A stretch of 32,366 bases of DNA from an uncultured Silvanigrella sp. (lineage in GTDB: Bacteria; Bdellovibrionota_B; Oligoflexia; Silvanigrellales; Silvanigrellaceae): the NCBI GenBank assembly GCA_903933385.1, contig CAIZJW010000178.1, positions 1 to 32,366 of the forward strand, given 5' to 3'. The stretch's first letter is position 1. Every line of letters begins with the position of its first letter. The notes below the pieces were generated by a model. That model was not told the DNA's origin, did no database searches, and saw only the letters and a program-made list of their open reading frames with translations. This document shows, in pieces, positions 6,718 to 25,574 of this stretch. The position numbers were made by a program, and so were the translations under genes.

Positions 6718-8097
6718 TCAACGCCCAGCCGGCACAGAAGGTGAGCGCACAGCACTCCCACTCGTGCTAGCAAACTCGCTCGCTGGCTTAAATTGAGCTA
6801 CGAAGGCTCTTTCATCTGCATGTTCAAACACTGCTCTCAGCAATCCAAGCGGAACATATTTGAGCGCGTCAATCAGGAGCGCCTTGCTCTGGCTTTCGAG
6901 GGGTTGTCCATTCTCGAAGGCCGCATCCAGCTGTGAAACCAGATCGCGCTCCGAATTCTGTACACGGCAGTCGGAGCCAGGAGCAGAGCAGAGCTGCTTA
7001 ATTGCATCAAGCCCCATACCAACCAAGACAAGCGATGAAGTCACCACGGAGCGTCCTTGGCGCAAGCTTCTGACTGCCATGCGCATCATTTCAACCTGAG
7101 CTTTTGCCTTCACAAGCGATTGTGTGCGGGTGGACTCAGTGAGAAATGGTTCAACAACGGTATTTAGATAACTTGCGATACCGAATCCATTTGCTTTGAA
7201 AACCAGCCCCCTGTTGACGGTCACATTCACGTTGCTGGTTTTGAAAATGCCACTATAAGTAGCGGTATCGAAAAAATTCCACCCCCCACGCACTGGTTCC
7301 CAATCGGTTGACTGCGAATCGGAGGGAACGCGCACTGAAACATCATGAAAGCTCGTCGCCATTTTACTTTCTTTAAATTCAAATTTGCCAATCACAGGAT
7401 TGGTTGAAATAGCCGCTCCCTGAAGATTGAAGTCAACCAAACGGACTTTTAAACCTGTTTCGTTACTTGCGAGCCTGGGAGGCAACTGTGATTCGTCGGT
7501 CAAAACTTGATAGAGACAACGGGTTTTCTTGAAAGGTGAAAAAAGAGATTTAGCAACTCCATTCCGCCGTAAAAGTGGAAGACCAGCCTCAATCACCGGC
7601 AACCCAACTTTGAGCCCTTCTGAACAGGTCCGGTGCATAAGGTCGCTGTAACTCTTCGATGCCAATGTCAAACCGAGAACGCCCAATCCAAGACTCGATT
7701 GCAGCACCGAACCTGGAACTTGAATCACGAGAGTCAAACACTCTCCTGCCTTAAGGCCAGCACAAAATTCCGGTTCGCTCTTCAGCTGAAAAAGAGTCGC
7801 ATCTGATTTCACGAGAACCGGATCTTCACCACTGACCGTTGTTTCACGACTCGATGCTATCTGTTCGATTTTAGGTTCTACCTCGAGCCGTTCTTCTTCC
7901 AAGGGAGCAGTGCTCGAACTGATGTCGTTTTCGCCGGTTCGTGCCAATGGCTCACGACTGATGCGCACGCTCCCTGCGTTACAGGCAGTTGGTGTGCTCA
8001 CGAGCGTTATGCCGGTCAACATCCCGAGACCAACCAAAGTTGCTTGAGTTGATCTGTGTTTGCTTTGGCTCTTTTCGAGTGTTTGTTTTCCAGCCAT
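6718..8097 (-). CDS. Putative lipoprotein, function unknown
   Basis: Encodes 459 residues starting MAGKQTLEKS. GAGGAG lies 7 bases upstream of this ATG; a longer in-frame start at 8199 would add a second, improbable hydrophobic leader. The N-terminus is basic, followed by a hydrophobic segment (about residues 19-34) and TPTAC with Cys39, a lipoprotein-like cleavage site with Pro at -3. After an acidic/Ser-rich linker (to about residue 95) the protein is a globular, mixed-strand domain with several cysteines. Its C-terminal third is helical (residues about 345-435) and it ends in a Ser/Pro-rich tail. I recognise no family. It has its own terminator and is divergent from the EEP lipoprotein gene, with which it shares a 290-base upstream region. 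Confidence 0.78.
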   Translation of the reverse strand: MAGKQTLEKSQSKHRSTQATLVGLGMLTGITLVSTPTACNAGSVRISREPLARTGENDISSSTAPLEEERLEVEPKIEQIASSRETTVSGEDPVLVKSDATLFQLKSEPEFCAGLKAGECLTLVIQVPGSVLQSSLGLGVLGLTLASKSYSDLMHRTCSEGLKVGLPVIEAGLPLLRRNGVAKSLFSPFKKTRCLYQVLTDESQLPPRLASNETGLKVRLVDFNLQGAAISTNPVIGKFEFKESKMATSFHDVSVRVPSDSQSTDWEPVRGGWNFFDTATYSGIFKTSNVNVTVNRGLVFKANGFGIASYLNTVVEPFLTESTRTQSLVKAKAQVEMMRMAVRSLRQGRSVVTSSLVLVGMGLDAIKQLCSAPGSDCRVQNSERDLVSQLDAAFENGQPLESQSKALLIDALKYVPLGLLRAVFEHADERAFVAQFKPASEFASTSGSAVRSPSVPAGR

Positions 8098-8387
8098 TGA
8101 CGTTCTCCTCACATCTGAGACCAACAGGCCTCGGCAAAGACGCAACAGCAATAAGCATGCCAAGCTCACTGAACAAAAAACACAAACCTTCACTCTCATT
8201 GAAGTGCTTCTAATTCATAAACGGTGTTCAAGGATTTTACAGTGCATTTAAGTTTTACAACATCGCAATAAATAAACACTTTATCGAATTTAATTATCGA
8301 CGCATGGAAAGTAACGTGGTAGCGACGCGATGCGTTGTTGCGGCGCAAAACCGCTGCCGCAAACTCCCCTTTACGAGGAATTCACCT
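8098..8387. promoter_or_regulatory. Shared upstream region of two divergent lipoprotein genes
   Basis: This region holds no gene. For the minus-strand lipoprotein, TAAAAT (8239-8234) with TTGTAA 15 bases upstream (8260-8255) is a weak promoter candidate with short spacing. For the plus-strand EEP lipoprotein, an AT-rich stretch at about 8262-8300 probably holds the promoter but no hexamer pair is convincing. TTGCGGC (8338-8344) and GCCGCAA (8356-8362) form a 7 bp hairpin ending about 14 bases before the GAGGA ribosome binding site of the EEP gene, so it could influence translation. Confidence 0.35.
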
Positions 8388-10672: not shown

Positions 10673-10697
10673 AGGCGAGCTGAAACTCAACTCGCCT
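10673..10697. terminator. Hairpin between convergent EEP and spoVR genes
   Basis: AGGCGAG (10673-10679) and CTCGCCT (10691-10697) form a 7 bp GC-rich stem, extendable inward by a few more pairs to a 3-base loop on the minus strand. It overlaps the spoVR stop codon region and starts 6 bases after the EEP stop. On the minus strand it is followed by TTGTTCTTATT, a U-rich tail, so it probably ends the prkA operon transcript. On the plus strand the tail (CTTCAG) is poor. Confidence 0.6.
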
Positions 10698-12219
10698 CTT
10701 CAGTGCCTGCAGGCTTTTCAATGCGGGGTTCTCCCCCGTCATACACGAGCAGTCTCGCCTCACCCTCGAGAACCGTTGAGAGATTCACGGGCCGGTTCCA
10801 AATCTTGAACAAACTGCGCATGGTTTCCATGGCCCAATCTACCTTGAGATCTTTGCCCTGGTGCTTGTGAGAGAGCAGAAGTTCACCACGATTGCGAAAG
10901 TTGCCATCAACAACCTCAATCACAGGCTGTCCAAAGTTTGTGAGTGCATCAAGTAATTCTTTTTTGATCGCTGGAAACTCACGATCGTTGATAACAGCCT
11001 GCCCCGAACGACGGTCGGCTGCCCAAGTAAAGAGTTTAGCCTCTTCACAGAAATCCTCGTCGAGAAATTCATCAATGAAAGTGATGTCGTTGTGATACTT
11101 GCGTACTTCGAAAATCTTATCTCGACCGCGATTCACATTAGTATCCCACGCTTTGCGCTGCGCAGGGTCGTCACAGAGCATGTAGTCGAGGCCGTATCGA
11201 CCCTTGTTCCAACGCGTCTCGATATGACGCATTAACTCAACGCCGACTTTGTAGGGATTCAGTCGCATACCTGAGGTTGCAGTGACACCAGCATAGTGAT
11301 CGCAATAATCGATCACCTCAGAGTCGTTGAGCACAAATTGCGTCATCAACTTTGAATGCCAGTAAACTGCCCAGCCTTCATTCATGATCTTTGTTTGACC
11401 TTGCGGAGCAAAATAATACGCCTCTTCACGAACAATGGAGAGGACATCGCGCTGCCAAGCGCTGAGAGGAGCGTGCTCAATCAAAAACTGAAGAATATCT
11501 CGACGCGGCGACTCAGGGAAACGTTTCTCACGCTCCGCTTCACGAATGATCTTTTCCTGTTGCTCTTTGAGATAGCTTTCCGGATTGATATACCCATCCA
11601 TATAGCTGCGCTGGGTTGGCAATTTGGGAATAGGACGCTTCTCTGGAGGAAGTGAATCTTCAAGATCCCGAGAGACCTTGGGCTCCCGACGAATATGCGG
11701 GGCGTGTTGATCGATGAGGTTTTCGATAGTGAGACATGTGTCGATGAATGATTCAACCTCGTCATGCCCAATTTCTTCGATATACCGCCGCATCCGACTT
11801 CCATGGTTGGCCATTTCGTCGAGCATTTTTCGATTTGTGTGCGCGAAACAGTAGTTATTTTTAAAGAAATCACAATGCCCATAAACGTGAGCGATCACTG
11901 TTTTCTGATCGACAAGTGAATTGCTTTTCAGCAAGTAGGCATAGCAAGGGTCGTTGTTGATAACCATCTCATAAATGAGACTCAACCCATATTCATAACT
12001 CTTAGAAAGGTGTTCGTATTCCATCCCAAATCGCCAGTGCGGATATCGCGTTGGGAAGCCACCATACGAAGCGATTTCGCTCATCTGCTGGTAATTTACC
12101 ATTTCAAATATAACCGGAAAAAAATCGAGACCCAGATTCCGGCTCTGCGATTCGATTTCCATAACGATATTTCTCAGCTCAGGAGTCAATTCGCTTGTCA
12201 GGCGTGGGTCCATCACCAT
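10687..12219 (-). CDS. SpoVR family protein
   Basis: A full-length SpoVR-like protein of 510 residues, a family named for a Bacillus spore cortex gene but widespread in non-sporulating bacteria, where E. coli YcgB is a member. Recognisable features are the N-terminal block DFFPVIFEMVNYQQM, PHWRFGMEYE, the YGHCDFFKNN motif, NEGWAVYWHSK (a His/Glu-rich region resembling a metal site) and the C-terminal domain with TVLEGEARLLVYDG. It starts 2 bases after the DUF444 stop, with AAGGA 8 bases before the ATG, and is the last gene of the prkA-DUF444-spoVR cassette. Its molecular activity is not established. An involvement in stress or stationary-phase adaptation together with PrkA is known of the cassette in other bacteria, and assumed here. 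Confidence 0.95.
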   Translation of the reverse strand: MVMDPRLTSELTPELRNIVMEIESQSRNLGLDFFPVIFEMVNYQQMSEIASYGGFPTRYPHWRFGMEYEHLSKSYEYGLSLIYEMVINNDPCYAYLLKSNSLVDQKTVIAHVYGHCDFFKNNYCFAHTNRKMLDEMANHGSRMRRYIEEIGHDEVESFIDTCLTIENLIDQHAPHIRREPKVSRDLEDSLPPEKRPIPKLPTQRSYMDGYINPESYLKEQQEKIIREAEREKRFPESPRRDILQFLIEHAPLSAWQRDVLSIVREEAYYFAPQGQTKIMNEGWAVYWHSKLMTQFVLNDSEVIDYCDHYAGVTATSGMRLNPYKVGVELMRHIETRWNKGRYGLDYMLCDDPAQRKAWDTNVNRGRDKIFEVRKYHNDITFIDEFLDEDFCEEAKLFTWAADRRSGQAVINDREFPAIKKELLDALTNFGQPVIEVVDGNFRNRGELLLSHKHQGKDLKVDWAMETMRSLFKIWNRPVNLSTVLEGEARLLVYDGGEPRIEKPAGTEEAS

Positions 12220-12221
12220 CG

Positions 12222-13325
12222 TTATTTTCCTTTACCAAGAAAAACCTTGAGGGCAGTCATGATACCATCACGATCTTTGATTTGGTGCGTAACAACTTTT
12301 TCCTGGTTTTCGCCAAAATGCTTTTCGAGATCTTTCAAAAACTGACCACTCCCGTATCGGCTTTCAACCTGTCCATAACAGAACAAGTTGGATGTAGGCA
12401 GTAGGACATTATCGAGCAGAACCATGCACTCGTTGGTGTCGTTGCCGCTCCAGTTATCGCCATCGGAAAAATGAAACATATAGATATTCCATTCATCGAG
12501 CGGATAATCTTCTTTTATAATTTTTTCACAAAGCTTGTATGCACTGGAAATAAGTGTCCCACCGCTTTCTTTCGTGTGGTAGAAGGTTTGCTCATCCACT
12601 TCCCGCGCAACAGCATCGTGTATAACGAAACGAGTTTCGATATTATCATAATTGCGTTTCAGCCAGGTATCCAACCAAAACGCCGTCAGCCGAACAATTT
12701 CTTTTTGTTCATCACCCATGGAGCCCGACACATCCATCATATAAATGATGCACGCACTGGCTTCAGGATTTTCCTCAATTTTGAAACTCCGGTAGCGTTT
12801 GTCTTCCTTAATGGGAATAACCTTGGGGTGCTCCGGTATGTAATCACCAGAAGATATCTGTCTTTTAAGGGCTTCTTTGTAGGTGCGTTTGAAGTTCCGC
12901 AAACCCTCGGGGCCGTTTCTAAGAACACCGTGATAACGTAGCTTCCGTGATTTGACGTTCTTTTTGCCTTTGTCCTCAATACGAGGAAGCTGCAATTCCT
13001 CACCTAGGATATCTGCCAGCTCTTCCAGAGAAACATCGACCTCAAGTCCATGATCTCCTGGATTCTGACCAGCCTCACCCTCACCTGGCTGAGGCTGTCC
13101 TTGATTCAGCGGATCGCCTGGCTGACCATCCCCCTGCCCCACACCTTTCTGCTGGTTTCCACCAAACTGAAAGCGCGGGAGATCAATTCGTGGCAAAGGG
13201 ATAGTAACCTGTTTATTTCCCTGCCGACCGATGAGTTCGCCAGAGGAGATGAAACGCTTGAGGTTCTCCTTGATCCGCCCGCGAACAATGCGTCGAAAGC
13301 GGTTTACATCGGTTTCCATCTTCAT
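12222..13325 (-). CDS. DUF444 / YeaH-YhbH family protein with von Willebrand A-like domain
   Basis: Encodes 367 residues. The N-terminal part ([19 protein letters not shown]) is typical of the UPF0229/DUF444 family, of which E. coli YeaH and Bacillus YhbH are members. It is followed by a Gly/Gln/Pro-rich low-complexity linker at about residues 55-95. The C-terminal half carries a MIDAS-like motif, [11 protein letters not shown], near residue 195, and a later [11 protein letters not shown], consistent with a VWA fold binding a divalent metal. The start has GAGGAG 8 bases upstream. It lies 56 bases after prkA and 2 bases before spoVR, the normal order of this cassette. In other bacteria it is thought to act with PrkA as part of one signalling module; no enzymatic role is proven. 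Confidence 0.93.
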
Positions 13326-13381
13326 TCAAAACTCTCCTCAAGCGCAGTTCTCGAATTCGGAGAACTAGCCAGCTACGCGCA

Positions 13382-15445
13382 TCAGTTTGAAGAACGCTTC
13401 ACGTCACCGCGCGCAAAAATGCTTGCGACAAAGTGAAGAGCGTCGTTCGAACAGATATCGCAATAACCATAGTTTTTGATCAGACGGTTCTTAACGACAT
13501 CAATTTTGGCTTGAGTCTCTTTATCGACCACATTGGATACCAAACTTGTCAGTTTAATGGTGTCCTTTTGATCTTCAAAAAGCTTCAGCTCAAGTGCTTT
13601 GTGCAATCGCTCATTTGTTTTGTAGTCGAAGGTTTTGCCTTCGAGAGCAAGCGCACCGATGTAGTTCATAATTTCCCGACGGAAATCGTCTTTGCGACTC
13701 TCGGGAATGTCTATTTTCTCTTCAATACTACGCATCAGACGTTCATCAGGCTCTTCACTTTGGCCTGTGTATTTATTGCGCACTCGTTCTTTCTGAGTAT
13801 AAGCCTTCACGTTGTCGATATAATTTCCGCAAAGCTTAGCAATCGCTTCTTCATCTGCAGAAATTGCACGTTGAACTTCATTCTTTACAATATCTTCATA
13901 CTCTTGTTTCACAACCGCAAGAAGCTCACGGTAGCGTTTTTTGGTTTCTTCATCACGAATCAAGGAGTGATTTTTCAAACCACCCTCGAGCTCGTTGAGA
14001 ACAATAAACGGGTTGATACAGCCATTGCCGCGATCGTCGACAAGCGCATTTGAAATTTTGTCTTGAATGTATCGAGGTGAAATACCGTCGAGACCTTCAC
14101 GCACAGCTTCCTTGCGCAATTCCTTGATGTTGTCTTCAGTGTAACCGGGCAGTGTTTTGCCATCATACAATTTAAGCTTCTGCATCACCGTCAGATTAGC
14201 CTTCTTTGGCTCTTCAAGACGGGTGAGAATCGCCCACATAGCGGCCGTTTCAATTGTGTGCGGAGCAACGTGAATATGCGGCACGCTCTCAGGGTTAAAA
14301 TCTTTACGGTAGATTTTAGTTTCTTCTTTGAGCTTGGTGATATAGGGAACGTCGATTTTCACAGTACGATCGCGCAACGCTTCCATGAATTCATTATTTT
14401 GAAGTTTTCTATACTCGGGCTCATTGGTGTGACCGACAATCACTTCATCGATGTCCGTTTGCGCAAATTTCTTTGGCTTGATGCGATGCTCTTGAGACGC
14501 ACCGAGGAGATCATAGAGGAATGCCACATCGAGCTTGAGCATTTCAACGAATTCAACCATCCCACGGTTGGCAATGTTAAATTCACCATCGAAGTTGAAC
14601 GCACGCGGATCGGAATCAGAACCATACTCAGCAATTTTACGGTAGTTAAGATCGCCCGTAAGTTCTGTGGAGTCCTGATTTTTCTCATCCTTTGGCTGGA
14701 ACGTTCCAATCCCGACGCGATTCTTTTCAGACAAAAGCAACCGACGCACACGAATGTGATTCTTAACGACTTTTTCCCAATCCCCGCCATATTGTTTCAT
14801 CAATTCATTGAAAACAAAACGACACGCCGGATCGATATCACCTTCAACATAAATCTTTTGATCAAAAGCCTTGCCTTTGTTGAGATAACTGAGAACCTTC
14901 GCTCTCCCTTCTTCAGGGATTAAACGCAGTGGCTCTTCATGCATGGGACACGCCATTGTGTCTTCCATGTTGAGTCGCTCTTTGAGATGAATCCAGTCGT
15001 AGGTGTAGAGAGCTCCTTCAGGCTGGTAGGAATACCATTCCACGCCTTTTTTGAGCATACGAGCAACCGTTGATTTTGCCGAACCAACCGGACCATGCAG
15101 CAACAAAACGCGTTTTTCAGGGCCGTAGCGCAAGCTTGCTGCTTTGAAGAAATTGACCAATTTAATGAGATTCACATCCAAGCCAAAAACCGCATCTTTA
15201 CCATTGTTCAGAGGGTCATCGAAGAATTTATAGTGAACAAGTTTCTTTTTGTGTTCAACATATTCATATGTTCCGAAGTGCATAATCATGTCGTATACAC
15301 GCTGAAAAGCCGTGCGACAGATCTTTGGGTTCTTCTCAACAATTTCGAGATAGTCAGCGAAACTTCCCTGCCAGTTGAGCTCGTTGTAGTGAGTTGGACT
15401 GTAAGCGTCGCGCACTATGTCGTAGATCTTGTGAGTCTGTTGCAT
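13382..15445 (-). CDS. prkA: PrkA family serine protein kinase / AAA-type ATPase
   Basis: Encodes 687 residues. The N-terminal PrkA AAA domain shows Walker [10 protein letters not shown] at residues 118-126, the conserved [17 protein letters not shown] block before it, and [12 protein letters not shown] and HTNEPEYRK further on, as in E. coli YeaG and Bacillus PrkA. The C-terminus ends with [12 protein letters not shown], a CxxC motif I associate with the Bacillus-type branch and not YeaG. Activity described for the family is Ser/Thr protein kinase; a protease-like role has also been proposed. The ATG at 15445 (GGAGG 4 bases upstream) is chosen; a GTG at 15478 with AAGAAGG at 8 bases would add 11 residues and cannot be excluded. 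It is the first gene of the cassette with DUF444 and spoVR. Confidence 0.95.
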
Positions 15446-15596
15446 GGCCCCTCCAGCAGCGCGAAACCACCCCGGCACAGCACCGACCTTCTTGGCACGT
15501 GTGACATCGAGTTCGCTTGACTTGAGAGTAAACCATGAAAATCAATGAGGTCAAACTGTTAAGGAAACACCGACAGAAACACCACGCAGAATATTT
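15446..15596 (-). promoter_or_regulatory. Upstream region of the prkA cassette with a tandem 8-mer
   Basis: These 151 bases separate the AMP-binding-like gene from prkA. On the minus strand GGTGTTTC occurs twice (15583-15576 and 15571-15564), 12 bases apart start to start, about 120 bases before prkA. This is a possible binding site for an activator. TTGACC lies further down at about 15554, but no -10 fits at standard spacing. No terminator for the preceding gene is visible. Confidence 0.3.
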
Positions 15597-17429
15597 TCAC
15601 TGCACTGTTGTTTGATAGAGCGTTTCAATTTCACCCTTACGGGTTTCGTTGATCTTGATTCGATTCAAACTCCCGCTCGGCAGCTTTTCACCAAGTGATT
15701 CCTGAAAAGGTTTTTCAAGAACCAAAAACTTTTTGATAGTTGCATGACGTGGAAGAGTTTCATTGACAGTTCCAATGCGTTGCTGAACCATCTCGCGAAT
15801 TTTTTCGGGTGACGTGCGGAACTCCGCTTGAGCGTCTGGTGATAAAACGACCAACGCTGACAGATACGGCATCTTATCCCCAACAATACAAACATCCTGA
15901 ATTTCTTCCGATTCACGCAGAAGTTGCTCGAGTCGTAAAGGAGAAATTGTCACCCCACCCGTCGTCACGAACAAATGCCGCCGACGTCCAGTGATCTTAA
16001 ATCCGAACGGGGTCATCTGAGCTACATCACCTGTATCTTGCCAATGGCCAGAACCACTGAAAGCTGGATGGTTCAATCGGTATTCCAATGAAGAATTTTG
16101 CCCGAGTCGAAACGAAACGTGCGACACCGGATTTCCAATGAGATTCAAATGAGGTGCATCGTAAGTATTTGCAGACAGCAAGCCAGCAGCAGCAGTCACC
16201 CCATAGGTTTCAACCACAGGAACTCCCATTTGCCCCAAAACCTCCACGTGAGCTTCACGCGCGGAAGCAAGGCCATGAACAATAATCTGCAAGTCAGCAA
16301 GCGTGTGTCTTACGAATTCCTTTCCAATCGCGTTCCGACTTGCCCAAAGCAAAGAGCGAGAGGCGGCGTCGAAAACTGCCTCTGGTAATTTCAAAGCTCG
16401 CCCTGTTTTTAAATACCCACGCGCTTTATCGAGTCGCGAACCAACTGCCAATCGAGGACTGAATCCTGGTGCATTCAATTGCTCATTCACGTGGTTTGCA
16501 ATTTTCTCAAGTTCTGGTGGGCTCGCAAATACGACCGTGGGTCGGAGAATCCGGAGATGCGAATAAAACTCGCCTCCCAATTGCGGGAAACCAATCACGC
16601 CGTTCTTCAACAAAGCACATATTCTTGATAAATGAGAAAAAGGATTGGCAAGAGGCAAAACTTCAAGGGTTTTCCAAAACAAATCAGATGGCGTGTTGAG
16701 ATGCAAAAGCAAGTGATTCGCGGTCACAACAAGAGCATCTAACGACAACGATTCCGGTTTTTGAAAACCATCATGACCAAAGGAAATAAAATCAAATCGC
16801 CCAACGCGCCTTGGCATCTCACCTACAAATTCAGGCAGCGAATTTGTCTGTCGCTTGGCCTCTCGAAGCTCTGGCGCAGATTTATACCAACGAAACAAAC
16901 CCAAAAGCGCAGGTTCAGGCGATTTATCCCTCACGCTCCAATGCTGCGTGGAAAGATCGAAAACTGCAACCCCAATTTCCTTGAGCTGCTGCGCATAACC
17001 TTGAATATCAGTCGCAACCGCAACGCAACCAAAATATTCCAAACACCAGCGAATGTCGGCTTCAGAGGCATGCAGAGGCATGAACATAACATCGTAACCA
17101 GCAAGCACTGCAGCAAGCGAAGCAGCAAACGCTGTGTAGCTATTGCGATTCATAAAAAGAATCGCTGGCCCACGGCCTCCCTCCTTAGGTTCGACGGGAG
17201 TGAGTCCAGACAAAGCAACCTGCCAATTACGACATGCTCTGCCTAGATGCGACAGAAAATCACGTCCCGAAAACTGATTCCAAGTTCCCTCAGCATAAGC
17301 CCGAGCAATAACCTGCTCGGTGCGCACCGACTGGCGCAACAGCAGATTGAAGAACTGCTCATTCCCTTGGAAAATTTGAGTCAGGTCTGCATCACTGGGA
17401 AAGTGCTTGGCAACGGGATTTTTTTGCAT
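15597..17429 (-). CDS. Divergent AMP-binding (acyl-CoA synthetase-like) protein, possibly inactive
   Basis: Encodes 610 residues with the overall layout of the adenylate-forming (ANL) superfamily: an N-terminal LFMNRNSYTAF region, VETYGVTAAAG at residues 407-416, DTGD at 465-468, and ITGRRRHLFVTTGGVTISP at 479-497 leading into the C-terminal domain. Key motifs are eroded. The phosphate loop, normally TSGTTGxPKG, reads FISFGHDGFQKP (214-225). The catalytic Glu after YGxT is Ala413. The usual C-terminal lysine motif is replaced by LPSGSLNRIK (583-592). The DTGD and GR motifs are intact, so the fold is probably kept while adenylation may be lost. Start at 17429; upstream GAGAG is a weak ribosome site. 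It lies 21 bases after the phosphatase gene. Closest function by fold is long-chain acyl-CoA ligase, but I would not assert activity. Confidence 0.72.
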   Translation of the reverse strand: MQKNPVAKHFPSDADLTQIFQGNEQFFNLLLRQSVRTEQVIARAYAEGTWNQFSGRDFLSHLGRACRNWQVALSGLTPVEPKEGGRGPAILFMNRNSYTAFAASLAAVLAGYDVMFMPLHASEADIRWCLEYFGCVAVATDIQGYAQQLKEIGVAVFDLSTQHWSVRDKSPEPALLGLFRWYKSAPELREAKRQTNSLPEFVGEMPRRVGRFDFISFGHDGFQKPESLSLDALVVTANHLLLHLNTPSDLFWKTLEVLPLANPFSHLSRICALLKNGVIGFPQLGGEFYSHLRILRPTVVFASPPELEKIANHVNEQLNAPGFSPRLAVGSRLDKARGYLKTGRALKLPEAVFDAASRSLLWASRNAIGKEFVRHTLADLQIIVHGLASAREAHVEVLGQMGVPVVETYGVTAAAGLLSANTYDAPHLNLIGNPVSHVSFRLGQNSSLEYRLNHPAFSGSGHWQDTGDVAQMTPFGFKITGRRRHLFVTTGGVTISPLRLEQLLRESEEIQDVCIVGDKMPYLSALVVLSPDAQAEFRTSPEKIREMVQQRIGTVNETLPRHATIKKFLVLEKPFQESLGEKLPSGSLNRIKINETRKGEIETLYQTTVQ

Positions 17430-17450
17430 GGGTATTCTCTCAGGAGATTA

Positions 17451-18422
17451 TCAGACAGCCATTCTCGGCGACGGTCCCTTGAGAACTATTACATTCTTCG
17501 TAAGGTCAAAGTAACTGCGCTTCGCATCAACTTGAATAGCGTCATCCAGTTCAGGAAAGTAACCCGTCAACTGCCGACCGTAGGTACAACCAGTGTCGAG
17601 CCCAACACAGATAGGACGGCCCGAAGATAGAGTTTTACGGAACAAACCCTGCTTAGCATCATGACCAAAAACAATCAGATCTGGTCCTGTGTGCAATTCG
17701 TGCCAGCGAAACTTATCAGCAACCTCAGGGCGAACACGCGGAGTGACATGTGGCGGAGGCATTTCGGGCGCGGAACCCTTGGGCAGCGGACGACCGAGTT
17801 GCTGCTTTTGCTCAGCCTCTGCCAACATTTCTGCTCGATACCCAGAGGGCACGAGAAGAAGCTTACCACGCGTGTTTGGGTCGTCCCAGCGCACATAGCG
17901 CGCCGTAAGAAGCATACGCTCAGGTGTTGCCATGACACCCGCCACAGGATCAATTCCAGCATGCACCACAATCATCGGGTACTCCTGCTCCCAACCCTTG
18001 CGCTCTCGCGCCGGTTTCACAGAAGTTTTCAGTGCATGAGGAAGCCCATTTACAAAATCAAATAAAGCTCGTTTATGGTGACGGACAAGATGAAGAGTTT
18101 GCTGAGTGTGTTCTGGCAATGATTGCAATCCGCGCCGTTGAGCTTGAACCATCGCAGCCCAAAGCGCCCAATCATGGTTGCCTTTTATACAAATAGCATC
18201 GAATTCGTGAATTAAATCAAAGACGCCTACAGGATCAGGGCCTTTAGTGAAAAGATCGCCCACGAGAACCAATTGGAATTGGCTCACCCTTTGACGAGCC
18301 TTCAAAACCAATTCTCTCAGCTCGCGTGCACAGCCATGAACATCCCCCACAATGAACAACGGGAGGCGGTCTGCCGAAGTGGGCAGTTCCTTTATGACTA
18401 TGTTTCGAGCTGTATCTTGCAC
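17451..18422 (-). CDS. Calcineurin-like metallophosphatase (PPP/ApaH-like)
   Basis: Encodes 323 residues with the full set of metallophosphoesterase motifs: GDVHG at 26-30, GDLFTKGPD at 55-63, GNHDW at 81-85, then VVHAGIDP and VFGHDA, and GLDTGCTYGRQLTG near the C-terminus. This arrangement matches the PPP family that includes bis(5'-nucleosyl)-tetraphosphatases (ApaH, PrpE) and bacterial serine/threonine phosphatases; which substrate it uses cannot be read from the sequence. I chose the GTG at 18422 (AGG 6 bases upstream). A TTG at 18443 would add 7 residues but has no ribosome site. There is no signal peptide, so it is cytoplasmic. It precedes the AMP-binding-like gene by 21 bases and is probably cotranscribed with it. 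Confidence 0.9.
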   Translation of the reverse strand: MQDTARNIVIKELPTSADRLPLFIVGDVHGCARELRELVLKARQRVSQFQLVLVGDLFTKGPDPVGVFDLIHEFDAICIKGNHDWALWAAMVQAQRRGLQSLPEHTQQTLHLVRHHKRALFDFVNGLPHALKTSVKPARERKGWEQEYPMIVVHAGIDPVAGVMATPERMLLTARYVRWDDPNTRGKLLLVPSGYRAEMLAEAEQKQQLGRPLPKGSAPEMPPPHVTPRVRPEVADKFRWHELHTGPDLIVFGHDAKQGLFRKTLSSGRPICVGLDTGCTYGRQLTGYFPELDDAIQVDAKRSYFDLTKNVIVLKGPSPRMAV

Positions 18423-18497
18423 GGCACACCTGCTCCAACCCAATCAGTGGGTCTGATTCATGGTAACAGGTGAAAACAGCATCGGCAACGCACAGAA

Positions 18498-18538
18498 AGT
18501 GCAAGTGTCAGAACGAATGCGCCAACAACACTTGCACT
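18498..18538. repeat. 11 bp perfect inverted repeat between NlpC-like and phosphatase genes
   Basis: AGTGCAAGTGT (18498-18508) and ACACTTGCACT (18528-18538) are exact reverse complements separated by 19 bases. The repeat lies in the 145-base gap between the NlpC-like stop and the phosphatase start. On the minus strand the stem is followed only by TTTCTG, a weak U-tract. It may be a poor terminator for the NlpC-like gene or a dimer-binding operator for the phosphatase gene. Confidence 0.6.
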
Positions 18539-18567
18539 CAACAATCGTGTTCAAAAGCAACGACAGA

Positions 18568-19344
18568 TTACTCAACAACTCGTCTTGGCTCGGCTGATGG
18601 CATCCGAGTCAGCGGCTCGCTTTGCTGCTCGAGATTCTGCTCAGGGTTCTGCTCAGTCGTTGGAACTTTGCTTGATGGTATCGCCTCTGCCTCTTTACGG
18701 GATTCTTCCTCAAGCTGAACTGCAAGTTGTTTCCAATCTTTTTCAAACGCGCGGTGTCGTCTACAGGCATAAACCTGCCTGGCGAGTAGATTTCGACGGC
18801 GGCTCAATTCACCACGATAGTAAGGTCTTCCGTCGACGTAATCGGAAGAAACATCCATGATAATGTTACTTCCCGAATGAAATTTCCCCTGGGGATCTTT
18901 CACATCAGCCATCACAATCCAGTGGTCTGGTTGACGACCGGGATAAGCCAACAAAACAACATCTCCAGCTTTCAAACCGCCCGTGCAACTTGTGAAATTC
19001 AACCTATCGTAATCAAATTGATACAGAAGCACGCCATATCCGGCGCCCCGGTGGGCTTGTCCGATAAAGCCACTGCAGTCTGTGACCGTTCGCTGGTAAC
19101 TTCCCAAACTATATCTACGCACGCTTTCGCCAAAGGAATGTGCAGAGTGTAGAAATCTCGAGACCCGCTCCGGAATCACTTTTCCCGTCTCAGACTTTGA
19201 ATACAAGATTCTCTCTTTGTTTTGAAAAAATGGCAGACCCTGTGTTTCACCCTGTGGCACTTGTGCACCACATGAGACAATGACGCTGCTCAGAAGAACA
19301 CCGGCCAACTCGAAAGTTCGGCGCAACAGACGGCTTGTCATCAT
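18568..19344 (-). CDS. NlpC/P60-like lipoprotein
   Basis: Encodes 258 residues starting MMTSRLLRRT. The leader is hydrophobic (AGVLLSSVIV) and ends at Cys25 (IVSC), a good lipobox. The core resembles an NlpC/P60 cysteine peptidase or amidase domain: Cys90 in TDCSGFIGQA is the expected nucleophile, GLKAGDVVLLAY precedes the histidine strand, and His141 (PDHWIVMADV) is the likely catalytic base. If active it would cut peptidoglycan peptides or a related amide bond in the periplasm. The C-terminal 70 residues are charged, Glu/Gln-rich and probably disordered or coiled. ATG 19344 was preferred over 19359 because GGAGG lies 6 bases before it; the ribosome site forms part of the palindrome GGAGGCCTCC. 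Cys and His are seen; the third polar catalytic residue is not identifiable. Confidence 0.82.
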   Translation of the reverse strand: MMTSRLLRRTFELAGVLLSSVIVSCGAQVPQGETQGLPFFQNKERILYSKSETGKVIPERVSRFLHSAHSFGESVRRYSLGSYQRTVTDCSGFIGQAHRGAGYGVLLYQFDYDRLNFTSCTGGLKAGDVVLLAYPGRQPDHWIVMADVKDPQGKFHSGSNIIMDVSSDYVDGRPYYRGELSRRRNLLARQVYACRRHRAFEKDWKQLAVQLEEESRKEAEAIPSSKVPTTEQNPEQNLEQQSEPLTRMPSAEPRRVVE

Positions 19345-19441
19345 TGGAGGCCTCCACACACACTGATTGAATTCTGCAAGTGCGCAGTACCCAGCAGAAC
19401 ATGTGCCAATAATAAAAAAGCTCTTATTTCCAATATTTAAT

Positions 19442-19493
19442 AAAAAAAAGCAGCCTTGATGGCCGCTTTTTGGGTGTCCAAGGGTTAGACACC
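19442..19493 (-). terminator. Terminator region after the acyl-CoA dehydrogenase operon
   Basis: Two hairpins lie in tandem. Nearest the dehydrogenase stop, GGTGTC (19473-19478) pairs with GACACC (19488-19493). Beyond it AAAAAGC (19445-19451) pairs with GCTTTTT (19465-19471), with an inner GCC/GGC pairing around a 5-base loop and one mismatch. On the minus strand the second stem ends in eight T (19449-19442), a good rho-independent terminator for the five-gene operon. Confidence 0.8.
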
Positions 19494-19524
19494 TGATATT
19501 TTTTGGTGAGCTATCTCGAAAAAT

Positions 19525-20667
19525 TTATCGTGTTTTCCTAACAAATTCCTTAATGATGACGCTTCGTAAAATTTCACTCGTACCGCCACCAATTTCAAGA
19601 AGCTTAGCGTCGCGCATTAAACGCTCCACTGGAAATTCGCGAATGTATCCATAGCCGCCCAGAACTTGAATCGCGTCGAGAGCTACTTTCGTTGCCATCT
19701 CCGATGCAAATACCTTCGCCGCCGCTGCTTCTTGGTTTGCTCGCCGACCTTCATCGACAACGTGCGCCGCTTCATAAACAAGCGCTCTTGCAGCGCGATA
19801 ACCAATGTACATATTAGAGATTTTTTCGCTGATCGCTTGGAAATTCACGATCGATTCACCAAACTGATTGCGTTCTTGTGCATATTTGAGTGAGTGATCA
19901 AGGCATGCACGAGCAATACCCAAACTCATGGCAGCCAAGCCAACGCGCTCAATGTCAAGGTTTTTCATCATATGCTTAACCGTGGATCCCTCTTCACCCA
20001 CACGATTTTGAACTGGAATTCGGCAATTGCGGAAAACAAGCTCTCCGGTTGGGCTTGAGCGCATTCCCATTTTTGAGAGCTTTTTGCTCACGCTAAAGCC
20101 CGGAAAACCACTTTCGACAATGAAGGTCGTGAGGTCTTGACGCCCTTCACCTGTGCGGGCGTACACGAGGAAAACATCGCCAATGGGACCATTTGTGATG
20201 AACATTTTTGTTCCGTTGAGAACATAATAATCACCCTCACGCACAGCGCGAGTCGCCATTCCTACAGCATCAGAACCAGCTCCTGGCTCGGTCATCGCCA
20301 TTCCAGAAACAAGCTCACCTGTGACACATCGAGGAAGATATCGATCACATTGTTCCTTGGAGCCATTTTGGGCGAGGTTGTGAACAAACAGAAGGCTATG
20401 AGCCAAGTATGACAAGCACGTTCCAGGCTCTGCATAACTGAGCTCTTCCATCACGGAGACCATCGCTTTGGCGCCAAGATTCGCTCCGCCAAACTCCTCG
20501 GGAATGGTGATTCCCAAAATTCCGAGGTCGCCGAGCTTTTTAAAAATACCCGGTGCAAGTCGCTCTTCGCGATCGAGCTCATCAGCATGGGGAGCAAGCT
20601 CCTTGGCAGCAAAGGCTCTCACGGTTTCTGTCAATTCTTTCATCTCAGCCGAAAAATAGTGCTTCAT
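19525..20667 (-). CDS. Acyl-CoA dehydrogenase, isovaleryl-CoA type
   Basis: Encodes 380 residues, a full-length flavin acyl-CoA dehydrogenase that oxidises an acyl-CoA to its 2,3-enoyl form and passes electrons to electron-transfer flavoprotein. Conserved blocks are AMTEPGAGSDA (124-134), FITNG (156-160), KMGMRSSPTGEL (199-210) and ERNQFGESI (265-273). The catalytic base is informative: LDIER places Glu240 where isovaleryl-CoA dehydrogenase has its glutamate, and the position used by straight-chain enzymes reads IGGGTSE with Gly in place of Glu. This supports a branched substrate such as isovaleryl-CoA. GGGAGA lies 6 bases before the ATG. It is the last gene of the operon, 28 bases after the carboxylase alpha gene, with a terminator behind. 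LiuA/AtuD-like names are possible, but the substrate is not proven. Confidence 0.93.
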   Translation of the reverse strand: MKHYFSAEMKELTETVRAFAAKELAPHADELDREERLAPGIFKKLGDLGILGITIPEEFGGANLGAKAMVSVMEELSYAEPGTCLSYLAHSLLFVHNLAQNGSKEQCDRYLPRCVTGELVSGMAMTEPGAGSDAVGMATRAVREGDYYVLNGTKMFITNGPIGDVFLVYARTGEGRQDLTTFIVESGFPGFSVSKKLSKMGMRSSPTGELVFRNCRIPVQNRVGEEGSTVKHMMKNLDIERVGLAAMSLGIARACLDHSLKYAQERNQFGESIVNFQAISEKISNMYIGYRAARALVYEAAHVVDEGRRANQEAAAAKVFASEMATKVALDAIQVLGGYGYIREFPVERLMRDAKLLEIGGGTSEILRSVIIKEFVRKTR

Positions 20668-20678
20668 GGTCTTCTCCC

Positions 20679-20695
20679 GTGACTTTCAAGGTCAC
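20679..20695 (-). other. Short hairpin before the acyl-CoA dehydrogenase gene
   Basis: GTGAC (20679-20683) and GTCAC (20691-20695) pair, with one further wobble-containing extension, in the 28-base gap between the carboxylase alpha stop and the dehydrogenase start. It could protect or separate the mRNA segments. There is no U-tract, so a terminator is unlikely. Confidence 0.3.
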
Positions 20696-22786
20696 TTAAT
20701 TTTCATCTCTGATTTCTGCCAAAACATCCGGACCTGCAAGTGTGAGTCCTGGTTTCACCCGAACACCCGTCACAATCCCAGCGCGAGGGGCCCTCAGTTC
20801 AAGCTGCATCTTCATCGACTCCAGAACAAACAGCAGATCTCCCTCATTGACCCTATCGCCATCTGCAACGCGAACCTCAAGAACCTTGCCAGCCATAGGT
20901 GCTTTGAGGAACGCCTCGGCCTCTCGGCCCTGTCCGGACACTTCAAGAAGAGCCCTTGAATCATCAGGCCAATCTAGAACAAGAGTCTCACCAAAGAGAG
21001 TGATTTGAATGTGTTGCCCTCTCGGGCGCGAAAGGAAACAGGTCACTTCACAAGGCGTACCAGCTCCTGAACGAGCCCGGAAAACCTTTGACTGCAAAGC
21101 AAATGTGCTTCGGCCTAAAGAATCATTCGTGAGTCCCGCCAAAACCTCGGTGAGTCCCCTGCCCGCAATTGTATATTCGTGAGGCATCGAACCTGGCTGA
21201 ACGTCAAGCCCACCATTTTCCGCAAACGAGCCAACATTCAATCCAGAAACAGACAGCGGAACATCAAACGGAATAAGTGCAGCAAAGCGGTCACCCACTG
21301 CTTTTGAAGGCGAGGGAACGGGTGCAAAGTGAGACCACCTGGCCCTTCGCAACAGTATGGCATCAGCTAATGCGCGACGAACATCGAGTCGCTGGAAAAA
21401 CTCTAAGAGAGCATCCGGAATCAAAGATTGGTTCAGCTCATCGACATGGGAGCCAATCCAGGCAGTCGAAACCCGACCCTCGATATAGTCGGGGTGCTGC
21501 GCAACAGCAGTCAGAAAAGGAAGATTTGTAGTGCAACCATGCACGACGGTGCTCTCCAAAGCACGAGCGAGCAAGTCGCATGCAGCTGCACGACTCGAAG
21601 CATGAGCAATGACTTTCGCTATCATCGAATCGAAGCGATCGTTGACTCGCCCTCCCTCGACAACACCAGAATCTACTCGCACGCCGTCAAGATCCGATTC
21701 GCGATAAACGACAAGAGGCCCTGGAGTGGGTAAAAATCCGGAACGAGGATCTTCGGCAAGCAGTCGTGCCTCGATGGCGACACCCTGGGGAATGGGAACC
21801 TGAAATACATCGGGTGAGGGAAATGCCATAGGCCAATTTCCCAAAGCTAACTCAAATTGAGCCCGCACAAGGTCAACACCATAAACCAATTCAGTGACAG
21901 GATGTTCAACCTGCAAACGCGTGTTCATTTCGAGAAAGAAAAAATCGCCGCTGTCGGTGAGCAGAAACTCAACGGTTCCCGCTCCTCGATATTTAGTTTC
22001 GCGCACAAGCGACATCGCAGCACGGCCCATCTTTTCACGCAGAGCAGCATCAACAACTGGGCTTGGAGCTTCTTCGAGTACTTTCTGATGACGTCGCTGG
22101 AGCGAGCATTCACGCTCCCCCCAAAACACGCCACCACCCTGGCCATCCCCAAAGACCTGAATTTCCACATGCCTTGGAGCCACGAGATATCGTTCTACAA
22201 AAACAGTTGGATCATTGAAGCTCGCCTCAGCTTCCTGCGACGCACGAGTGATGGCATCTGGCAGATCTTTTATATTTTCAACAATCCTCATGCCGCGGCC
22301 GCCCCCACCGCCACTTGCCTTCACTAAGAAAGGAGCGATGATGCCACGGTCGCCGAGCACAGAGGCCCATTTATCCACCGAAAGATCTCTCAGTTCATGG
22401 CTCAAGAGCGCTTCGAGTGTCGGAACAGCGCAACGGCGAGCGAAACTTTTAGCAGACTCTTTTCCGCCCATCGCTCGCATGTTTAGGGATGTCGGGCCAA
22501 CAAAAGCAATATTTGCGTCTTCTACTAACTGCGCGAAGTCAGCATTTTCCGAAAGAAACCCATAGCCAGGATGCACAAGATCTGCACGCCATTGCCGCGC
22601 AGAATGAACAATAGCTGACGCATTGAGAAAACTATCAACTTCAAGAACTTCATCAGCTTCGAATCGCACAGGCGCGTCGCTATCTTCTGGAGTCGAAATA
22701 ACTGCAACTTTCCAACCGAATTCACGCCCAGCACGCATTATGCGCCGCGCAATCTCTCCTCGGTTGGCAACAACAAGACGTTTCAT
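20696..22786 (-). CDS. Acyl-CoA carboxylase alpha subunit (biotin carboxylase plus biotin carrier), methylcrotonyl-CoA carboxylase-like
   Basis: Encodes 696 residues. The biotin carboxylase part begins at the extreme N-terminus (RLVVANRGEIARRI), with HPGYGFLSENADFA, the ATP-grasp glycine loop KASGGGGGRGM, ECSLQRRHQKVLEEAPS, EMNTRLQVEHPVTE and DSMIAKVI, all intact. The C-terminal carrier domain carries the biotinylation site ESMKM with Lys659. A central domain between about 460 and 610 bridges the two and is the least conserved, as in MCC and PCC alpha subunits. It carboxylates biotin using ATP and bicarbonate, then hands the group to the beta subunit encoded at 25590. The start codon overlaps the hydratase stop (ATGA, 22783-22786). 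Size, architecture and neighbours favour methylcrotonyl-CoA carboxylase (LiuD-like); geranyl-CoA carboxylase (AtuF) is an alternative. Confidence 0.94.
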   Translation of the reverse strand: MKRLVVANRGEIARRIMRAGREFGWKVAVISTPEDSDAPVRFEADEVLEVDSFLNASAIVHSARQWRADLVHPGYGFLSENADFAQLVEDANIAFVGPTSLNMRAMGGKESAKSFARRCAVPTLEALLSHELRDLSVDKWASVLGDRGIIAPFLVKASGGGGGRGMRIVENIKDLPDAITRASQEAEASFNDPTVFVERYLVAPRHVEIQVFGDGQGGGVFWGERECSLQRRHQKVLEEAPSPVVDAALREKMGRAAMSLVRETKYRGAGTVEFLLTDSGDFFFLEMNTRLQVEHPVTELVYGVDLVRAQFELALGNWPMAFPSPDVFQVPIPQGVAIEARLLAEDPRSGFLPTPGPLVVYRESDLDGVRVDSGVVEGGRVNDRFDSMIAKVIAHASSRAAACDLLARALESTVVHGCTTNLPFLTAVAQHPDYIEGRVSTAWIGSHVDELNQSLIPDALLEFFQRLDVRRALADAILLRRARWSHFAPVPSPSKAVGDRFAALIPFDVPLSVSGLNVGSFAENGGLDVQPGSMPHEYTIAGRGLTEVLAGLTNDSLGRSTFALQSKVFRARSGAGTPCEVTCFLSRPRGQHIQITLFGETLVLDWPDDSRALLEVSGQGREAEAFLKAPMAGKVLEVRVADGDRVNEGDLLFVLESMKMQLELRAPRAGIVTGVRVKPGLTLAGPDVLAEIRDEN

Positions 22787-23664
22787 TTTTCAACTCCGAA
22801 CTCTGAGCTATCAAGCGTCACTGTCCAGTTTGGCTGTTTTTTCTCGAAGAACTTTCCAAGCCCATGCTGCCCCTCTTCAGAGCAGCGAGCGACTGCAATA
22901 GCTTGCGCTGTGAATTCGAAAATTCCTGGATCGGGAAGCGGATGGAGGCGGCGCAGCAATTCTTTTGTTCTCCGCACAGCGTTTGGCGCAGCTGCCAGAT
23001 GTTCGTTGATGATTCCTAGAAGTGCCTCTGTGAAGGCACCTTCGTCTGTGGAGGAGTCAACAACTTGATTCACAAGTCCCATTTCAAAAGCGCTGCGAGC
23101 GGTCATGCGCATACCTGAGAGCATTGGAGAGGCTGCACGACCGCAGCCAATTTTACGAACAATGTATGGACTAATGACGCCAGGAACAATACCCAAGCGA
23201 ACTTCGCTGGTGGCAAAGACTGCTTTTGAGTCAGCCAAAACAACATCAGAGCAACACACAAGTCCAAAACCTCCGCCAACAGCAGCACCGCGAACTGCGG
23301 AGATCACTGTCGTTGGGAAGCTTGCAAGGCGAAAAAACAACGTTCCCAAAACCCTTGCATCACTCAAGCTCTGAGCCTCATTGCCGCGAGCTTGTTCCTG
23401 CATGTAGGCCAAATCTGCACCCGCACAAAAAGTAGAACCCTCCCCTTCCAGAAGAAGTATTCTCATTTTTTCTGCTTCACGAGTCGCCGCAAGTTCAGCC
23501 AAAACATCATTGAGTTCGCCAATCATTTCTGCGTTAAATGCATTGCGAACTTCGGGTCGGTTGAGAATCACTCGCACTACACCACACCCAGCATGTTTCA
23601 CTCTCAACGTTAGGCCGCTGTAATCAGACGTGAGATCAATTTTGCGGGTTTTACTCATGGTCAT
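22783..23664 (-). CDS. Enoyl-CoA hydratase/isomerase family, methylglutaconyl-CoA hydratase-like
   Basis: Encodes 293 residues of the crotonase family: ILNRPEVRNAFNAEM near the N-terminus, the oxyanion-forming STFCAGADLAYM and RGAAVGGGFGLVCCSD, and SEVRLGIVPGVISPYIVRKIG, the last resembling methylglutaconyl-CoA hydratases (LiuC type). In leucine breakdown this enzyme would hydrate 3-methylglutaconyl-CoA to HMG-CoA. The ATG at 23664 is chosen because it overlaps the AtuA stop as ATGA, the same coupling seen at the other end of this gene, and AAGG precedes it. ATG 23658 is equally possible and an in-frame ATG at 23703 would overlap AtuA by 43 bases. Catalytic glutamates were not individually assigned. 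Confidence 0.9.
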   Translation of the reverse strand: MTMSKTRKIDLTSDYSGLTLRVKHAGCGVVRVILNRPEVRNAFNAEMIGELNDVLAELAATREAEKMRILLLEGEGSTFCAGADLAYMQEQARGNEAQSLSDARVLGTLFFRLASFPTTVISAVRGAAVGGGFGLVCCSDVVLADSKAVFATSEVRLGIVPGVISPYIVRKIGCGRAASPMLSGMRMTARSAFEMGLVNQVVDSSTDEGAFTEALLGIINEHLAAAPNAVRRTKELLRRLHPLPDPGIFEFTAQAIAVARCSEEGQHGLGKFFEKKQPNWTVTLDSSEFGVEK

Positions 23665-25574
23665 TGAGCCTTCAGATGGTTCGCGTGAGAATATATTTCG
23701 CAATCGGGAGCCGCATGCAGCGCATCAATTGTAGAAATCAAATCGAGCGGAATTTCCATTTCACAACGTAACAAAGCCTGACTTAATGTTTTACCCTGAG
23801 CGTCAATGCACAAACTCATTGTCCCGCCACCATCGAGCGACTCTTCAAGAAGAAAGTTCAAAGACCAGAGATTAGGCACATTGTAACGCGTGACTTGCCC
23901 CTGACAAATGGTTGCAAACCACCCTTTGACAAGTTCGGCCGAAACATTTTCCCGCAGCCACGCGTAACATTCGGGAGAGCGCGCAATGAGCCCAATATTT
24001 GCGGTGTCCCCTTTGTCGCCACTGCGCGCATGCGCGATGCTCCAAAGTGGCAAACGTTTGGTTTTGGAAAGATCAATTCTCTTGCAGGAATGCCCATCCT
24101 GCGGAGCTATTGAAATATCAGCGGTCCCGCCTGTTTGAGGCCAATTAAGTTCTTTAGATTGGGCGAGCACAGCAACGTCTTTTTTCGTTTGAGTGACTTC
24201 TCCCACCCATACTCGTCCGAGAGCAACATCTTGAGGAATAAGTGCTGGCCAATAGCTAACGACATCACTAATTATTGGAGCGCCGCCAGTGACTGCAACT
24301 CCCGAAGGACCACTGAGAATGAGACTTGGAAGTATTTTTCGGAAGACCTGCAGGGTTGCCTTTTCATCAGCGAGAGCACCAAAGCGAACAAGGACTTCCT
24401 TAGCAGACGAATGCGGAGAAAGACCACGGTGAGTTGAATCGTCGCCGATAAACTCAGTCATTGTTTTTCGACACTGTGGCAATCCCGCACGGCTGAGCTC
24501 AGCACTGAGCTTCTGCCACATAATTTCAGCAAAGACTTCTGCTTTGGCTCTTGCATCTGGACCAGAGACAATGAGTGTTCCACTTGCCTTGAAGCCATCA
24601 GAATAAGCGACACTGACCTTCAGAAGATCGGTGGGCAGACGACCGGTGACCCCCGATATTCGCACGCGATCTTCACCCTCTTGATTCAATTGGATGGAGG
24701 TGAAGTCGGCAATGACGTCGGGAGTAATATAGCTTTGTGGGTGTCCCATTTCATAGAGAAGTTGTTCTCTCACTGTTTGCACAGAAACCAATCCGCCGCT
24801 GCCGGGATGCTTAGTCACTACAAACGAACCGTCGGCTTCGCATTCAAGAATTGGAAAACCGACATCAACAAAATTCTTTACTTTCTTCCAATCAGTGAAG
24901 TTACCACCCGTTGCTTGCGCACCGCATTCGATAATATGTCCGGCCACAATTCCGTGCGACAATTTTTCATAGTCACTTTGCTGCCAACCAAATTCGTGAA
25001 TCATTGCAGCCAGTGTGATTCCTGTGTCAGTCACTCGACCACAAATGATGATGTCCGGGTTGTTTTTAAGAGCTTCAACCACAGGCATTGCACCAAAATA
25101 AACATTGGCGCTGAGAACTTTTGAGACCACATCATCGAATTTCTCACCGGTTTCCATATTTTTCATGGCACAACCAGGTTGCTTTACAATTTCGGGCAGT
25201 CGCGCAGCGATGTCATCACCCTCAACAAGAGCGACACGAAGATCAACTCCCACCTTGCGGGCCAACTCAAACAATGCTTCAGCGCATGCCTGAGGATTCA
25301 CACCACCTGCGTTTGTGATGATCTTGATACCGCGCTCTTTGCAGGTTTTCAGGAGCGGAGCAAGCTGGCTTATAAAATCGCCCGCATATCCCATTTTTGG
25401 ATCTTTTTGCTTCTGCTTTTGCAGAATACTCATGGTAATTTCAGCAAGGAAATCAATTGAGACATAATCCAACTTGAGAGGGCCACACACCTGCCGACGC
25501 AGTGCAAAAGGATCATCGCCCCAATACCCTCCGGCATTGGCAATTCGAATCATGGTTTTTTCTGTTCCACTCAT
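23661..25574 (-). CDS. AtuA family protein (acyclic terpene utilisation; DUF1446) with C-terminal AtuA-like domain
   Basis: Encodes 637 residues. The N-terminal two thirds match the DUF1446/AtuA family: RIANAGGYWGDDPFA, GYAGDF, KIITNAGGVNPQACAEA, IICGRVTDTGITLAAMIHEFGW, HIIECGAQATGGNFTDW and VTKHPGSGGLVSV. The C-terminal 120 residues begin near residue 505 with IAHARSGDKGDTANIGLIARSPE, the small AtuA-associated domain, fused here in one chain. The family was named from citronellol/geraniol degradation in Pseudomonas, but its reaction is not established. It sits between the carboxyltransferase beta gene (15 bases upstream) and the hydratase (4-base overlap), so it belongs to the acyl-CoA carboxylation pathway. 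AGGA lies about 10 bases before the first ATG; ATG8 (25553) is an alternative. Confidence 0.92.
   Translation of the reverse strand: MSGTEKTMIRIANAGGYWGDDPFALRRQVCGPLKLDYVSIDFLAEITMSILQKQKQKDPKMGYAGDFISQLAPLLKTCKERGIKIITNAGGVNPQACAEALFELARKVGVDLRVALVEGDDIAARLPEIVKQPGCAMKNMETGEKFDDVVSKVLSANVYFGAMPVVEALKNNPDIIICGRVTDTGITLAAMIHEFGWQQSDYEKLSHGIVAGHIIECGAQATGGNFTDWKKVKNFVDVGFPILECEADGSFVVTKHPGSGGLVSVQTVREQLLYEMGHPQSYITPDVIADFTSIQLNQEGEDRVRISGVTGRLPTDLLKVSVAYSDGFKASGTLIVSGPDARAKAEVFAEIMWQKLSAELSRAGLPQCRKTMTEFIGDDSTHRGLSPHSSAKEVLVRFGALADEKATLQVFRKILPSLILSGPSGVAVTGGAPIISDVVSYWPALIPQDVALGRVWVGEVTQTKKDVAVLAQSKELNWPQTGGTADISIAPQDGHSCKRIDLSKTKRLPLWSIAHARSGDKGDTANIGLIARSPECYAWLRENVSAELVKGWFATICQGQVTRYNVPNLWSLNFLLEESLDGGGTMSLCIDAQGKTLSQALLRCEMEIPLDLISTIDALHAAPDCEIYSHANHLKAQ

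Follow-up and report, generated by a model that had tools for sequence, protein, structure and literature searches.

ANL enzymes form a very large superfamily in which the roles of the active-site residues are established: the P-loop and a Glu contact the phosphates of ATP and Mg; an Asp and an Arg hold the ribose; and a Lys acts in the adenylation transition state. The motifs that carry these residues are conventionally named A3 to A10. Acyl-CoA synthetases of this superfamily have a known side product, Ap4A. We know of no earlier ANL pseudoenzyme with a signalling role, and searches of open-access literature brought up no relevant case of a non-catalytic ANL member.

Ap4A is also a substrate of ApaH enzymes, which hydrolyse it together with Np4 caps; PMC7705103 describes both this activity and the formation of Ap4A by acyl-CoA synthetases. 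For the ApaH-like (ALPH) phosphatases, motif definitions are taken from PMC8220851, in which the matrix was trained on eukaryotes.

Relatives of these two kinds of protein lie side by side in an uncultured Silvanigrella sp., a member of the Silvanigrellales (Oligoflexia, Bdellovibrionota). The window, meaning the whole 32,366-nucleotide stretch of DNA analysed, encodes a degenerate FadD15/ACSL-type acyl-CoA synthetase relative, pANL, and, 21 bases upstream on the same strand, an ALPH-type PPP phosphatase. The reading favoured here, at about even confidence, is that pANL is a selected pseudoenzyme that most likely binds a ligand and signals through a partner, for which the ALPH phosphatase is the best candidate.

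Identity of pANL

The pANL gene occupies positions 15597..17429 of the minus strand, exactly the bounds that an earlier note on this DNA had proposed, and encodes 610 aa. Its assignment draws on Pfam, on hhalign and on the predicted fold. PF23562 (AMP-binding_C_3) is matched at E 5e-13 (49.9 bits against a cut-off of 20.8). PF00501 is matched at 30.1 bits against a cut-off of 29.9, over residues 254-442 only, and in a six-frame genome scan the same gene falls below the cut-off, at 21.2 bits. None of the 25 NCBIfam models shown reaches its cut-off (best, 45.4 against 345). In profile-profile comparison, however, hhalign pairs pANL with 13 intact ACSLs from the same class at 99.93% probability (E 1.9e-35), aligning 533 columns from residue 26 to the end. 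A match of this extent marks pANL, to judge by the alignment, as a full-length, very divergent relative of the FadD15/ACSL-type acyl-CoA synthetases, and not as a fused fragment. In a tree with the ACSLs, the pANLs form one clade on a very long stem; at 3.3 changes per column, and with long-branch warnings, this stem means that the tree fixes no sister group.

An AlphaFold2 model, built from eight sequences (mean pLDDT 67.6; pTM 0.69), has the ANL fold. Thus the two features by which an acyl-CoA synthetase is recognised, this fold and a Pfam AMP-binding match, are both present. The pocket is the less certain part of the model, with segments 217-222, 259-266, 386-388 and 408-430 at pLDDT <50. 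Foldseek ranks an adenylation domain of a carboxylic acid reductase first (E 1.3e-21), loosely superposed (TM-score 0.40 by query length; rmsd 19.0). VIA-align places 5ie2, an oxalate--CoA ligase, in its top row (Z 23.9; 414 residues aligned; rmsd 12.5) and superposes 1v26 more closely (Z 23.2; rmsd 4.9 over 319 residues). The loose full-length superposition could mean that the two domains are oriented differently relative to each other, or that the model is poor.

Motif loss in the Silvanigrellaceae

Orthologues of pANL were found in 13 of 14 Silvanigrellaceae genomes (G000-G013), the exception being G004, which is 92% complete. At E 1e-40 there were none among 44 other genomes of the phylum; at E 1e-5, 19 of the 42 genomes that belong to the class but not to the family gave matches. 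Homologues from outside the family have the TSGTT P-loop and the A5 Glu at all 17 loci examined (L014-L030), these being the loci fetched, with nine further matching rows that came without a locus left out. The alignment, profile, tree and column counts rest on 13 of these 17 ACSLs. The other four (L015, L016, L019 and L024) are otherwise intact enzymes with SGD for TGD and a P-loop of the form TSGTTA[NH]PKAV; their P-loop, Glu and A10 Lys are intact. Among the 13, three loci (L027, L028 and L029) encode otherwise intact ACSL-type enzymes with LTPKLS replacing LTPTLK.

PF23562 lies above the Pfam cut-off in all 13 pANLs, and in 15 genomes of the order these 13 are its only matches. A search of the window's own genome for a close paralogue returned, at E 0.001, one match: the pANL gene itself. 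Among the genome's other ANL proteins, four were inspected; two are FadD-like, with TGGTTGVSK and an intact PxGKxxRK, and these other proteins can, by their motifs, serve fatty-acid activation. A wider genome scan used two family-specific peptide patterns, which matched 52 stretches, and seven of the loci encode a relative: Fluviispira multicolorata; Spirobacillus cienkowskii; two Silvanigrellales MAGs; and three further MAGs. More divergent relatives may exist elsewhere, beyond the reach of two patterns.

The earlier note had listed superfamily signatures that survive in this protein and catalytic motifs that are replaced, and the alignment agrees at each position. DTGD (residues 465-468), TGRRR (480-484) and TTGG (489-492) are all present. 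The phosphate loop reads ISFGHDGFQKP (residues 215-225; positions 16755..16787, minus strand, as for all motifs given here) instead of TSGTTGxPKG, with a one-residue insertion and with His-Asp for Thr-Thr; the A5 motif reads YGVTA (residues 409-413; 16191..16205) in place of YGxTE, with Ala for Glu; and the A10 region reads LPSGSLNR (residues 583-590; 15660..15683) in place of LTPTLKxKR. One refinement is needed: 11 of the 13 orthologues still have K224, the P-loop Lys, so the loop is lost in part only. Moreover, the joint alignment reveals a loss that the note had not listed, deletion of the A6 segment (GYxxNPxxT).

These losses are common to the family. Orthologues with intact motifs, whose existence would contradict the claim, were looked for; none of the 13, the window's copy included, has them, at identities to that copy down to 37%. 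The P-loop consensus across all 13 is [VI]S[FI]G[HN]DG[FI][QH][KQM][PK], with [HN]D at the Thr-Thr position every time. The A5 Glu column holds Ala in five, His in seven and Gln in one; the A10 catalytic-Lys column holds Ser in three, Ala in one, Glu in eight and Gln in one; and Lys occurs at neither 585 nor 587 in any pANL. Retained without exception are Y409, G410 and T412 of YGxT; TGD 466-468 of motif A7 (16026..16034); R482 of the A8 motif GRRRH (15975..15989), in which the Glu of GRKKE has become an invariant His485; His266 of A4; and R590. The hallmarks of an active ANL enzyme are thus divided: the TGD Asp (D468) and the GR Arg (R482) are present and invariant, and the phosphate loop TSGTTGxPKG, the Mg-binding Glu of YGxTE and the A10 catalytic Lys are gone.

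With the residues for the ATP beta and gamma phosphates, for Mg2+ and for the adenylation transition state lost, pANL should probably not adenylate fatty acids. A P-loop with [HN]D, and no Mg Glu or Lys, makes ATP/Mg binding and adenylate formation appear unlikely; binding of an AMP-type or acyl ligand would be possible.

Could pANL nonetheless be a normal acyl-CoA synthetase, active in spite of its unusual motifs and drawing its Lys from K592, K582 or K224? The A10 Lys position does vary in intact ACSLs, since in three of 17 (L027-L029) Ser fills the aligned column and the Lys comes two residues earlier. With K592 kept in 12 of 13 pANLs and K224 in 11 of 13, some of them could use another Lys. 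However, all 13 lack the P-loop Thr-Thr, the YGxTE Glu and the A10 Lys at once, the joint alignment has no A6 segment for them, and no one Lys close to A10 occurs in every member. Catalytic equivalents placed elsewhere in the chain would, by the earlier note, also have spoken against it; a relocated catalytic Lys was sought by sequence, the model pocket being at pLDDT <50, and no new invariant Lys was found in the pANLs. Their sole invariant Lys residues are K566 and K567; neither is new, because position 566 is Lys in 11 of the 13 ACSLs and position 567 is Arg or Lys in 10. We regard an ordinary synthetase as quite improbable.

An enzyme with altered chemistry is a less remote alternative, although still an unlikely one. 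Here the remodelled loop GHDG, the invariant His385, His437 and His485, and Glu256 would together build a new active site that might, for instance, act on an acyl-CoA or adenylate by hydrolysis or transfer. Column counts lend this idea some substance. The 13 aligned ACSLs share 69 invariant columns, of which pANL keeps the residue invariantly in 22 and in the majority of sequences in five; at 33 the ACSL residue is never found, and 11 of those 33 are fixed for another residue. The new polar residues fixed in all 13 pANLs include D220 (Thr in 13 of 13 ACSLs), E256 (Ser in 13), H485 (Glu in 12, Asn in one) and H385 (Thr, Ile or Val). Against this, the Glu column (A/H/Q) and the Lys column (S/A/E/Q) vary, as expected of positions without a catalytic role, and the sequence matches and listed fold matches are to ordinary ANL enzymes.

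Selection and gene neighbourhood

pANL is under purifying selection. Nei-Gojobori estimates were made for six pANL pairs, of which two have saturated dS; in the other four, dN/dS is 0.051, 0.026, 0.055 (a pair with very few changes) and 0.089. These values lie below those of the same-cluster biotin carboxylase in each of the four measurable pairs, and above those of PrkA wherever PrkA's is computable. No internal stop was found within the matched stretch in any of the 10 orthologues checked. Motif loss might otherwise have suggested a decaying pseudogene, as might the fast change of pANL relative to its neighbours: the window's copy is 47-50% identical to those of the seven genus-g5 genomes that have both genes, compared with 87-88% for PrkA. 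The low dN/dS and the unbroken reading frames lead us to reject decay, which is also hard to square with retention of the gene in 13 of 14 family genomes and is given almost no weight.

Loss of catalytic residues in every orthologue found, under purifying selection, is the pattern of a conserved pseudoenzyme. Judged from these sequences, the motif loss is not damage in one genome; it is a family-wide property, seen in 13 of 14 genomes, of a selected, non-canonical ANL protein.

Constraint is unevenly distributed. A set of 10 non-redundant pANLs is invariant at 50 of the 125 positions in 381-505; for 11 non-redundant intact ACSLs the count is 22 of 125, a gap of which part will be due to the higher similarity of the pANLs (mean identity 52%, against 44% for the ACSLs). 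The nucleotide side of the pocket is, on this comparison, the most constrained region of pANL.

The neighbours are those that the earlier note described, with a PPP-type phosphatase on one side and the PrkA cassette on the other. The phosphatase (17451..18443, minus strand) is directly upstream of pANL in 13 of 13 genomes, and the motif substitutions are kept beside it in all 13, which answers the note's proposed check. The gene for the PrkA serine protein kinase (13382..15478) follows 118 bases downstream, on the same strand, and continues into genes for a DUF444 (YeaH-type) protein (12222..13325) and a SpoVR-type protein (10687..12219), all on the minus strand. This prkA-DUF444-spoVR block comes directly after pANL in 11 of 13 genomes; in the remaining two (G005 and G013) other ORFs follow pANL and the phosphatase still adjoins. 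No full PrkA was found in G013, which is 72% complete.

The phosphatase is thus the most constant neighbour of pANL, in a small sample and within a largely syntenic block. The synteny itself weakens the link, as does G004, which has the phosphatase but no pANL, and in which the phosphatase and prkA lie on different contigs with other neighbours. At E 1e-15, all 15 genomes of the order have a phosphatase orthologue, and none of 41 others of the class has one. In G014, of the same order and another family, the contig stops 352 bases past the phosphatase.

The adjacency of prkA admits another explanation: pANL as a structural or scaffold protein of the PrkA-DUF444-SpoVR stress system, binding no ligand. 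That prkA comes straight after it in 11 of 13 genomes is in keeping with this, but G005 and G013 lack an adjacent PrkA and yet retain the adjoining phosphatase, and the nucleotide side of the pocket is the part that is best conserved. That conservation is the main reason why we favour a ligand-binding pseudoenzyme and consider a bare scaffold improbable.

Transcript boundaries were also sought. The interval from pANL to prkA showed no terminator-like site, and positions 15300-19700 no promoter-like one. Across the region, terminator-like sites number five, compared with 5.5 in shuffled sequence, so these data decide neither for shared nor for separate transcripts. An 11-pair terminator-like hairpin (19445-19471, minus strand) lies just after ACAD and may end a catabolic operon, with the proviso that such sites are not enriched over shuffles in the region.

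On a larger scale, positions 10687-27224 join a class-wide CT-AtuA-ECH-BC operon to ACAD-phosphatase-pANL-PrkA-DUF444-SpoVR, an arrangement of the window's family. Around AtuA in 15 other genomes of the class, no phosphatase, pANL or PrkA match was seen, and an ACAD match only in L094; CT adjoins AtuA in the other 14, its place being taken by the ACAD match in L094. Origin of pANL from an acyl-CoA synthetase of the AtuA operon was considered and is not supported by these surroundings, since ANL, phosphatase and PrkA queries at E 1e-6 matched nothing within 15-20 kb around AtuA in the same 15 genomes. In G003, no acyl-CoA dehydrogenase match was found upstream on the rest of the contig. An NlpC/P60-type ORF (18568-19359) lies between ACAD and the phosphatase in the window's genus only (three of 13 genomes). 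Elsewhere in the window, two long minus-strand ORFs (6718-8199 and 581-2389; 493 and 602 aa) have no Pfam match at E 0.01.

Proposed role and comparison with known systems

Together, these observations suggest the following model. pANL descends from a FadD15/ACSL-type synthetase and keeps the ANL fold, along with the groups expected to hold the AMP part of an adenylate: the YGxT Thr, the TGD Asp and the GR Arg. At the phosphate-binding place of the P-loop, [HN]D would present an acidic residue. The protein would then most likely bind an acyl, adenylate or nucleotide ligand and signal through a partner, the best candidate being the upstream ALPH phosphatase; the PrkA kinase cassette, being less constant, is the second candidate.

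The steps of this model differ in strength. The pseudoenzyme step is well supported by the sequences. We infer the lack of activity, the ligand binding and the partnership. A functional link to the ALPH phosphatase, suggested by synteny, is conceivable, but we hold it with less than even confidence. An Ap4A-based version of that link is chemically attractive; it carries over to a dead enzyme, by analogy, what is known for active ones. More specific still, and rather doubtful, is the proposal that pANL serves an ALPH-type Ap4A/RNA-cap phosphatase as its dedicated regulatory subunit, binding acyl-AMP, acyl-CoA or Ap4A and tuning the phosphatase. Were it true, fatty-acid or branched-chain acyl-CoA status would be coupled to nucleotide-cap or alarmone turnover and to the PrkA stress kinase. 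Of the earlier note's interpretation, then, the part that stands is an ANL protein kept as a functional gene with its catalytic motifs lost (13 of 13); the acyl- or nucleotide-sensing role is a proposal.

One bacterial family apparently has only a degenerate form of the FadD15/ACSL enzyme type, kept under selection beside an intact-looking phosphatase, and pANL offers a well-defined example, open to testing, of an acyl-CoA synthetase that has become something different. Moreover, an 'AMP-binding protein' annotation in the Silvanigrellaceae clade should not be taken to mean fatty-acid activation.

How does the locus compare with described systems? The window's phosphatase was the only one compared with the ALPH definitions. 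It has all six motifs (GDVHG, GDLFTKG, GNHD, HAG, IVFGH and LDTG), including the motif 2 Lys, and the ALPH spacing, the starts of motifs 1 and 2 being 29 residues apart and those of motifs 2 and 3 being 26 apart; the pattern used left positions 4-5 of motif 2 open. It differs in being bacterial, and in a Phe at motif 2 position 4 that lies outside the published, eukaryote-trained matrix.

For pANL itself, the best sequence match among solved structures, in the C-terminal part, is to the carboxylic acid reductase adenylation domains (PDB 6oz1 and 5msp), which are also its top Foldseek matches. Unlike those reductases, pANL has no carrier or reductase domain in its 610 aa, and the Lys of 6oz1 and 5msp in the matching stretch is absent from it. 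Also close are the FadD15/ACSL-type synthetases (PF00501 plus PF23562). The P-loop, the YGxTE Glu, the A6 segment and the A10 Lys of these enzymes are replaced or deleted in pANL, whereas full-length homology, the C-terminal domain, TGD, GR, YGxT and the A4 His are common to both. pANL would accordingly be placed, with its role as proposed above, as a pseudoenzyme within the known ANL superfamily.
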